From assembly GCA_014377485.1 (NCBI GenBank), contig JACMPM010000092.1, forward strand, positions 1 through 41,660: a stretch of DNA of 41,660 nucleotides, given 5' to 3'. A program made the translations under genes and the position numbers. This document shows, in pieces, positions 5,404 to 28,823 of the stretch (position 1 is the first letter of the stretch; each line of letters starts with the position of its first letter). Below the pieces are notes generated by a model that was given only the letters and a program-made list of their open reading frames with translations, was not told the origin of the DNA and did not search any database. Source of the stretch: Bacteriovorax sp. (lineage in GTDB: Bacteria > Bdellovibrionota > Bacteriovoracia > Bacteriovoracales > Bacteriovoracaceae).

Positions 5404-6312
5404 TTATTTCTCTCGAGTCAAGTTGAATGATTTTTGTACGATTTTTGGGTCGTGCGCCCTAAAGATCAAATGGCCCAAATGTTTTGACACCAAGTCTTGA
5501 ATAATTTTTAAATGAAGAATTTCTGAATCTTGAAATGGATCAAGAGAATCAGGCAGAGACTTACGAAGAAAAGATTTTTTAGAAACTCCGATTATCCATG
5601 GGATATTTATCAAAGAATTATTTAATTTAAAAACTAATTCATCAAACCGGTGAATCAAATCCCAATTTTGCTCATAAGTTTTAGAAAAGCCAAAACAAGG
5701 ATCACAAATAATTTTATCTATCATTCCAATTTCTTTTAATTTTTCCAAACCTTTAGAGAAGTGTTCAAAGCACATTTGGACAATGTCGCCTTCATGAATA
5801 TATTTCATGTGATCAAGAATATTATCGCGCAAAGGAATATGCGTACAACCGTAAACGTAAAAGAAATTCTCCTGGTTTTGTTTATTTTTTAAAAGCATCA
5901 GCAATTCAGAGTCAAGCACACCTGATACATCATTAAAAATAAACCCACACTCGTGATACCTGGATTTAAATTTCTCCTCAAAATAGAGATAATTTTGCGG
6001 CCTATAAGTATCGAAAGAAATCCAGCGGCCATTAAGGTCAATCTCTTTAATGATATCGAAAAATGAGTCAAATCTTGATCGCTCTTCATCTAATGAGATG
6101 GCCGAATTCATAGGTGCTGTAGACTCAAATCCAAAATCAAGTGCAAGGTTGGGAATGGTCAAAAAATTATTAAGAGTAGATTTGAGAGTTTCGGAATTTA
6201 AAAAAATATTTCCGTCTGAAAATGAATTGGGAGTTATATTTATAACTCCCAATTTATTTAATTCTAAAAATTTTTCGAGCTTAGGCAAGTATTGGATCAA
6301 GAGATGGTGCAA
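5404..6312 (-). CDS. folP: Dihydropteroate synthase
   Basis: The enzyme condenses p-aminobenzoate with hydroxymethyl-dihydropterin diphosphate to dihydropteroate in folate synthesis. The signature [14 protein letters not shown] lies near residue 21. Later elements are [41 protein letters not shown] and a final RAHDP, in family order. The protein is fairly divergent: Cys replaces the usual Gly after DP, and a long insert lies around residues 130-185. The frame starts with TTG at 6312, inside the last codons of ftsH (overlap about 32 bases), so translation is probably coupled to ftsH. A slightly later start is possible because about 20 residues precede the first strand. The ftsH-folP order is conserved in many bacteria. 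Confidence 0.9.
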
Positions 6313-9739: not shown

Positions 9740-9816
9740 GGCTTGGTAGCTCAGTTGGTTAGAGCGATGGATTCATAACCCATAGGTGGGCAGTTCGATT
9801 CTGCCCCAAGCCACCA
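9740..9816 (+). tRNA. tRNA with CAU anticodon, probably elongator tRNA-Met
   Basis: A full cloverleaf is visible. The acceptor stem GGCTTGG pairs perfectly with CCAAGCC, followed by A and an encoded CCA. The D arm is GCTC-AGTTGGTTA-GAGC. The anticodon loop is TTCATAA, so the anticodon is CAU. The T arm is GGCAG-TTCGATT-CTGCC. The acceptor stem lacks the C4-G69/C5-G68 pairs of E. coli tRNA-Ile2, and U4-A69 is Met-like, so elongator Met is favoured over lysidine-modified Ile2. An initiator is unlikely because position 1 pairs normally. Two oddities: an A31/C39 mismatch at the base of the anticodon loop, and G rather than C at position 48. Confidence 0.93.
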
Positions 9817-28419: not shown

Positions 28420-28457
28420 AACTCCTCAGAGAATTTTTTAAATTATTTTGAGGGGTT
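28420..28457. terminator. Hairpin after ricT, possible terminator
   Basis: AACTCCTCA (28420-28428) pairs with TGAGGGGTT (28449-28457) with one G-T wobble. The loop can form an inner AATTT/AAATT stem. No T run follows on either strand, so termination activity is uncertain. It could serve as a transcript 3' end stabiliser. Confidence 0.3.
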
Positions 28458-28501: not shown

Positions 28502-28529
28502 TTGATATTTTTATGACATCTGCTAAAAT
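28502..28529 (+). promoter_or_regulatory. Candidate promoter of a small RNA
   Basis: TTGATA (28502-28507) and TAAAAT (28524-28529), each one base off consensus, are separated by 16 bases. The predicted start, about 28535, coincides with the first base of a 10-bp stem. No open reading frame follows. Confidence 0.4.
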
Positions 28530-28534
28530 AAAAA

Positions 28535-28615
28535 CTGGTGGTTTTAGATTTGAAATTTTGCAGGATCCTTTTCATAAACCACCAGAAAACTTCTCAAATT
28601 CTTGAGGAATCTTTT
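28535..28615 (+). ncRNA. Candidate small RNA of about 80 nt
   Basis: CTGGTGGTTT (28535-28544) pairs perfectly with AAACCACCAG (28576-28585), so the predicted transcript would begin in a 10-bp stem enclosing a 31-base loop with a GGATCC palindrome. A second small hairpin, CTCAA-attc-TTGAG (28593-28606), is followed by CTTTT, a weak terminator-like end. A promoter sits at the right distance upstream. It does not match the SRP, 6S or tmRNA landmarks I know. Existence is inference from layout alone. Confidence 0.35.
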
Positions 28616-28823
28616 AACCGAATTATCATAATTACCTCCATTTTTTGAGAATTAGCAGCACGAAAGTTTATAGATTTTCTAGTATGAAATGGACTTGAAT
28701 TCCAGCGCATAAATAATGCCTTAATGAAATATACATTTTTATAAGTAGCCGTTTTTATAAAAAATTATTCCTTATGGAATAAAATTAACTTAAAACAAAT
28801 ATTGTTTTAGCCGATTATTCGGT

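Follow-up and report, generated by a model that had tools for sequence, protein, structure and literature searches.

Results

A predicted promoter and two hairpins downstream of ricT

The window, i.e. the whole stretch of 41,660 nt of Bacteriovorax sp. DNA that was analysed, carries at 28502-28615, in the gap between ricT and an M16 peptidase gene, an element that a first-pass annotation had put forward as a candidate small RNA (sRNA) with its own promoter and no ORF. The parts of the element and its immediate surroundings, all on the + strand, are listed below by position.

28420-28457, + strand: terminator-like hairpin after ricT (AACTCCTC...GAGGGGTT), stem found by eye
28502-28507, + strand: -35 hexamer TTGATA, from the sequence; TTG at a spacer of 16-18 in 79/92 copies
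28521-28529, + strand: extended -10 TGC TAAAAT, from the sequence; TANNNT in 84/92 and TGN in 76/92 copies
28531-28628, + strand: conserved RNA body AAAAC...TATCA, matched by covariance models R1 and R2
28535-28544, + strand: 5' strand of helix P1, CTGGTGGTTT, from covariation
28552-28573, + strand: inner helix P1b, GAAA (28552-28555) with TTTC (28570-28573), weaker than P1 and P2
28558-28564, + strand: apical motif TTGCAGG, conserved, with GCGA, GCAA and GCAG variants in other genera
28576-28585, + strand: 3' strand of helix P1, AAACCACCAG, from covariation
28591-28608, + strand: hairpin P2, arms 28591-28597 and 28602-28608, AUUC loop 28598-28601, 5' side CU-rich
28612-28615, + strand: TTTT after P2, a weak terminator-like U run and possible 3' end
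28672-28692, + strand: second block AGATTTTCTAGTATGAAATGG with inverted repeat TTTC...GAAA, about 45 nt beyond the RNA body

The promoter claimed for the ricT-M16 gap, TTGATA-N16-TAAAAT, is present at 28502-28529 with a 16-nt spacer, TG at 28521-28522, the -10 hexamer at 28524-28529 and 10 of 12 matches to the consensus. From the -10 geometry, transcription is predicted to start at 28534-28536, a range that includes the stem foot at 28535 where the annotation had placed it. The stem itself (P1) is indeed a perfect helix of 10 bp, CTGGTGGTTT against AAACCACCAG, with a loop of 31 nt, and the second hairpin and short T run were found as described, at 28591-28608 and 28612-28615. The hairpin after ricT lies upstream of the sRNA promoter and is separate from it; its loop is too long for the hairpin scan and it does not figure in the scan's list. 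The next gene, that of the M16 peptidase (28824), lies about 200 nt downstream on the same strand as the element.

The coincidence of promoter and stem, which had been judged beyond chance with no calculation, was borne out by counting. Indeed, a promoter of such grade with a perfect 10-bp stem 4-9 nt past its -10 occurs at two sites over both strands of the window, once per strand, and at none in 30 dinucleotide shuffles of the window searched on both strands. The sole other site lies on the minus strand near 6288. Promoter-like sites alone are not above chance in the region (11 found vs 10.3 expected from shuffles), and the fold energy of 28502-28640 is weakly better than that of shuffled sequences (z -1.36, 18/200 shuffles as good), with a mean fold z of -2.17 over the 93 related copies described below, 55 of which fall below -2. 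The stand-alone statistics of the stretch itself are modest, and it is the comparative evidence from the 93 copies that decides the sRNA reading.

A family of 93 copies in 29 genomes

A BLASTN search with the intergenic region, run against its own genome and 56 other relatives, added two copies from the former and gave matches in 12 of the latter. Two matches proved not to be copies: the one in G031 (locus L043) covers AT-rich promoter sequence only and the one in G026 the far downstream part only, and both were left out or not fetched together with a few other short BLASTN rows. A first alignment (A1) holds 33 of the 37 extracted copies, the remaining 4 being divergent, truncated or promoter-damaged, and a second one (A2), from genus g62, holds 17 of 19 copies. 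The window copy belongs to the training set of the covariance model R1, so that the R1 match to the window body at 28531-28628 (2.3e-19) is one within that set. R1 matches were observed in 13 of the 57 genomes (one antisense row was dropped) and in 22 of 129 family genomes at E<=1e-3; among the latter 129, nine genomes of the second genus g62 gave weak but consistent matches. The model R2 was built from the 17 g62 sequences only, none of them from the window's genus, and recovers the window copy at 1.3e-8 plus three more in its genome, with matches in 27 of the 129 family genomes at E<=1e-4. No sequence is common to the two training sets, although it was through R1 that the g62 copies first came to notice, and the E-values of both models are rough.

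Over 368 genomes of the phylum, R2 matched 29, in 7 of 181 genera, and 28 of these belong to one family, the exception being G155. In total, 93 distinct copies were counted, and the 29 genomes with copies hold between 1 and 11 each; a few weak or degenerate copies (e.g. G009:C17, G013:C90, G029:C1, G007:C161:7421 and G005:C2) are retained in these counts, which are not independent since the copies are related. The window's genome holds five, namely the window copy on contig C37, one each on C104 and C27 and two on C26, and the highest number, 11, was found in G004, a metagenome-assembled genome with 9% contamination in which some copies are degenerate. No copy was found at the R1 and R2 thresholds in three genomes of the same genus (G008, G010 and G011). 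At L017:1467-1560 and L020:3046-3143, degenerate or truncated copies lie near intact ones, as if the family were born and lost quickly.

An exact pattern from the 3' half of the element, searched across 84,980 species, gave 15 matches in 14 stretches, all labelled Bacteriovorax sp. or Bacteriovoracaceae bacterium, and for this reason the host family is taken as Bacteriovoracaceae. The same pattern had no match in viral contigs, and single queries with the window stretch against phages and with a g62 stretch against plasmids likewise returned none. At the gathering score of Rfam 15 the only match in the window is a tRNA at 9740, and at a lax E-value no match listed for 5 and 7 copy-bearing loci overlaps a copy.

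The stems covary and the loops are kept

The A1 consensus displays one helix, P1, of 10 pairs; in 6 pairs both sides have changed. Paired cells amount to 93.6% against 79.0% in shuffles (0/500 reach this value), the covariation is 0.423, compared with 0.148 in shuffles and no more than 0.147 when the partner strand is slid, and 47 cells show two-sided changes against 11.1 shuffled (0/500). The number of pairs with two-sided changes is not unusual by itself, as 186 of 500 shuffles reach 6. Loss of the stem in relatives had been named beforehand as an observation that would refute the candidate; the stem is kept there, with compensatory changes and positive covariation. For P2, in this structure-blind alignment, 5 of 8 pairs are changed on both sides, which 2 of 500 shuffles reach, and the covariation is 0.124 against 0.062 shuffled and a slid maximum of 0.107. 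In genus g1, the pairs in the middle of P2 are often not formed. In the disjoint set A2 both helices covary (0.290 vs 0.128), with 93.4% paired cells against 85.2% and two-sided changes in 9 of 16 pairs (0/500 shuffles).

The inner helix P1b is supported in aggregate only. Anchored on the apical motif, its closing-helix score is 9.81 against 7.29 shuffled over 85 of the 93 copies, related copies being treated as independent, and just 16 of these 85 reach p<=0.05 singly; the unanchored test gave 9.00 vs 8.54, i.e. not above shuffles. By eye, P1b is clearest in G017, G142, G002 and G004:C35.

The loop sequences are kept across genera and the stems beneath them vary. TTGCAG is found in 47/93 copies and any variant of the apical motif in 85/93, ATTC in the 3' half in 83/93, a linker with a pyrimidine run of at least 5 in 85/91 and TTTT near the end of P2 in 78/93. 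In many g62 copies (L114-L128), P1 contains CCAGAAA, complementary to a downstream TTTCTGG whose end letters change together with it; the P1 foot and an extended P2 compete for pairing there, a feature absent from the g1 consensus.

A conserved promoter position and a candidate 3' end

Promoter features were counted over the 92 copies with 60 nt of upstream sequence, which one of the 93 lacked, and compared with shuffles of the upstream letters. A TANNNT ending 0-4 nt before the RNA body was observed in 84/92 copies vs 20.1 in shuffles, the extended TGN in 76/92 vs 1.4, and TTG at a spacer of 16-18 in 79/92 vs 1.5; all three are combined in 72/92 copies vs 0.1 (0.115). The hexamers are thus kept at the same place, with a spacer that is mostly little conserved. 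The candidate sRNA with its own promoter gains support from this conserved placement taken together with the covarying stem. That a chance hairpin merely follows a chance promoter in AT-rich DNA, as the promoter scan at chance level and the fold z of only -1.36 might suggest, is refuted by the covariation, the R2 match to the window copy and the promoter conservation over 93 homologous copies, and hardly deserves any credence.

In G017 (L142:4900-5400) three full units, each preceded by a -35 and -10 of its own, follow one another in tandem at distances of 133 and 131 nt, together with the tail of a further unit. The first two units end in CCCC..GGGG-AGTTTTT, a strong terminator, and the third in a weaker form, which marks P2 as a terminator hairpin in that genome. 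Elsewhere the end of the RNA is less sharply drawn: conservation runs past the U run to TAnCA and, in some copies, includes a block corresponding to 28672-28692, and in some g62 copies a strong terminator can be seen by eye some 260 nt from the start. A strict TTTC-N2-9-GAAA repeat was found downstream of 29/93 copies, including that of the window, against 1.7 shuffled, with looser forms seen by eye. This block could be a 3' hairpin, an operator or the end of a moving unit. Given the short U run, the conservation beyond it, the downstream block and the g62 terminator at about +260, the 3' end predicted for the RNA may lie beyond TTTT at 28612-28615.

The copies share no neighbour gene and no reading frame

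No ORF of at least 50 codons in the list spans the element, in line with the absence of an ORF claimed for it, and frames are not kept among copies; ORFs of at least 90 codons overlap 3 of the 93 copies (95, 95 and 98 codons, two antisense and one sense). A gene for a small protein would have to start at TTG 28558, which opens a 15-codon frame ending at TCTTGA, or at a GTG in P1, and stop in P2. Closed ATG or GTG frames of at least 20 codons do lie inside the RNA body in 29/93 copies, and when TTG and flanking sequence are allowed such frames appear in 86/93, a count that has no control. However, the distance from TTGCAG to ATTC, taken modulo 3, is distributed 22/13/10 over 45 copies, and that from the P1 GTG (present in 65/93 copies) to ATTC 27/21/14; closed P1-GTG frames of at least 15 codons number 21 vs 16.6 (sd 3.4) in shuffles, and the sequence changes follow pairing. 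We regard the coding reading as extremely improbable. The P1 GTG sometimes opens a frame of about 20 codons.

The element could also act in cis, as 5' leader or riboswitch of the gene that follows it, here that of the M16 peptidase, whose position on the same strand about 200 nt further on is what such a leader would call for; moreover, CCAG in P1 of g62 copies can pair, by eye, with a downstream CTGG in an alternative fold. The copies at large do not bear this out, as the g1 consensus TTTTCAGG has not retained the alternative pairing and there is no fixed position before a co-oriented gene. From mechanical ORF calls, the downstream gene is on the same strand in 49 copies, on the opposite strand in 40 and out of view in 4 of the 93, and within 250 nt the numbers are 26 and 27 respectively. 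A shared neighbour gene was looked for among 52 copies, those of g62 being left out, and rejected: the largest neighbour protein cluster has 4 members, and clusters mostly represent the same locus across genomes. A leader function is accordingly very unlikely.

Nor are the copies tied to ricT or M16. The ricT gene was found in all 14 relatives examined and no copy lies beside any of them; 11 of these relatives carry copies, on contigs other than that of ricT in 10 cases and 125 kb away in G002. The ricT-M16 gap is thus just one landing place. Neighbour genes are diverse, with clpX, ssb, thyA, a pyrophosphatase, nusA/rimP and rpsA among those listed (named by eye), and only one lipoprotein family and one transposase-like family recur at different places.

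Possible horizontal movement of copies

Between G110 and G155, the latter a genome in one contig and from another family, a stretch of 323 aligned bases is 95.7% identical; it runs from about 80 nt before the RNA body to about 146 nt after it, and its flanks are unrelated. Sequence identity of this degree suggests that a segment of ~320 bp with one copy moved horizontally between two families. Both copies lie at most 2.5 kb from tRNA-His and on its strand, copies of G000, G113, G114 and G122 are also found downstream of tRNA-His on its strand, and in five loci (L141, L146, L150, L151 and L153) copies have tRNA-Phe nearby on the other strand. The sRNA copy may thus have travelled as part of a tRNA-linked island. 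An apparent second repeat common to several loci turned out to be tRNA-His itself. A variable region with at least one copy lies downstream of tRNA-His, on its strand, at L076:3805-5351, L120, L121, L140, L144 and L147, and such tRNA-His-linked variable regions occur in genera g1 and g62 and in G155.

Instead of being an RNA gene, the element might be a recombination site or a piece of mobile DNA, of an integron attC-like, MITE or REP-like kind. The dispersed and tandem copies, the ~320 bp shared at 95.7% by different families between unrelated flanks, the several copies in variable regions beside tRNA-His or tRNA-Phe and the transposase-like genes seen by eye near some G009 copies all fit a mobile element. 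However, such an element would not account for promoter hexamers kept over an unconserved spacer or for compensatory changes in the stems, and inspection by eye reveals no clear terminal repeats at either end of the shared segment. An integron integrase (TIGR02249) exceeded the cut-off in 0/17 genomes, and also in 0/14 controls, so that this search has no positive control; matches below the cut-off, to other tyrosine recombinases, were seen in 17/17 genomes. The element is probably not an integron site, and we consider a purely DNA-level identity improbable. A bolder scheme has the sRNA gene itself as a self-spreading cassette of ~320 bp (promoter, RNA and downstream block). Moving inside one predatory bacterium or from one to another, the cassette would come to rest downstream of housekeeping genes and in variable regions linked to tRNA genes, build up tandem arrays and supply a chaperone-free RNA regulator with two small loops as its sole constant parts; this scheme is speculative and in our estimate rather unlikely.

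Discussion

A probable free-standing sRNA gene

Being multicopy, covarying, endowed with its own promoter, flanked by neighbours on either strand, devoid of a kept frame and without a match in Rfam, the element is best read as a free-standing sRNA gene of an apparently undescribed family. From comparison of the sequences, it is very probable that the copies are real sRNA genes of one family. The predicted gene has its own sigma70-type promoter with an extended -10 and a body of about 90-100 nt that would start at the P1 foot; the predicted RNA comprises P1 with the apical UUGCAGG (GCGA or GCAA elsewhere), a CU-rich linker and P2 with its largely conserved AUUC loop and U run. It would be transcribed from this promoter, stabilised by its paired 5' end and terminator-like 3' hairpin, and end at or beyond the U run.

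Mechanism is a matter of more doubt. A profile search for Hfq (PF17209) found none in 20 genomes, a set in which 12 reach a completeness of 90% or more with contamination of 5% or less, the control being positive in 5 of 14 named genomes; ProQ was matched in 1/20, as a borderline case, and CsrA in 18/20, 17 of them over the cut-off. As Hfq was not detected and the layout resembles that of LhrC, trans pairing free of a chaperone is favoured. The RNA would act in trans without Hfq, most likely by pairing with purine-rich ribosome-binding sites in the LhrC manner; all copies would address a common set of targets through the same sequences in loop and linker, and would be additive in dose. The CU-rich linker may not be free for such pairing, part of it lying inside P2. 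Base pairing with mRNA as the mechanism is accordingly a tentative proposal to which we give somewhat less than an even chance, and the whole statement, that of a free-standing sRNA gene of a multicopy, lineage-specific family acting in trans on mRNAs independently of Hfq, stands at about even chances.

Conserved small loops on covarying stems would fit a protein partner as well. The main alternative is that of a protein-binding decoy, in which the apical motif and the AUUC loop titrate an RNA-binding protein and extra copies raise the dose, following a CsrB- or 6S-like logic. The conservation of the loops across genera over varying stems, ATTC in 83/93 copies and the genomes' lack of detectable Hfq alongside CsrA matches in 18/20 (17 over the cut-off) are consistent with a decoy. 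However, the CsrA core AGGA is found in only 20/93 copies (plain GGA in 64/93), so that CsrA is no obvious partner. We hold a decoy function to be possible, if on the unlikely side, and retain mRNA pairing as the working proposal.

Whichever partner it has, a multicopy family in genomes in which Hfq went undetected, and ProQ nearly so, offers a handle on post-transcriptional regulation in these bacteria. It also lends itself to testing how sRNA genes multiply and move, since copies are tandem, dispersed, tRNA-adjacent and found across a family boundary.

Comparison with known systems

By its constitution the family is of a known kind, that of multicopy sRNAs, and appears to be an undescribed member from Bacteriovorax-type bacteria. 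The Qrr sRNAs of Vibrio exist in several near-redundant copies with a conserved core and act additively; they need Hfq and sigma54 promoters. The family presented here is like them in its near-redundant copies with a common core and differs in its predicted sigma70-type extended -10 promoter and in the lack of detectable Hfq. Decoy RNAs such as CsrB and RsmZ have conserved hairpin loops and act in a dose-dependent manner, and are defined by repeated GGA loops. Conserved hairpin loops are found here as well, but AGGA occurs in only 20/93 copies, and GGA at any place in 64/93.

Few small RNAs have been described for predatory Bdellovibrionota. In the open-access literature, which mostly leaves subscription papers outside, no sRNA of Bacteriovorax is described in the titles and abstracts among the matches listed. 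For Bdellovibrio bacteriovorus, a predator of the same phylum, attack-phase sRNAs and merRNA, the latter with a c-di-GMP riboswitch, are presented as intergenic RNAs with mapped starts, and the authors report no significant homology for the attack-phase sRNAs outside that species (PMC3627812). The Bacteriovorax family is likewise intergenic, and no Rfam family matched it in the window or the copy-bearing loci searched.

The LhrC sRNAs of Listeria pair through CU-rich motifs with AG-rich ribosome-binding sites, without Hfq as far as shown (PMC8079631). In contrast to LhrC, which is marked by UCCC motifs in loop A and in the linker, the apical motif of the present family is UUGCAGG or GCGA and not UCCC; TCCC was found in the P1 loop region of 14/93 copies and in the linker of 56/91. 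The genomes further differ in that no Hfq gene was detected and in carrying up to 11 copies each. The likeness to LhrC1-5, Rli22 and Rli33-1 of Listeria monocytogenes is one of layout: two stem-loops joined by a pyrimidine linker, the second being the terminator, are matched here by P1 and by P2, whose role in termination is predicted from its terminator-like form, and in both cases there are several redundant copies, some of them in tandem.
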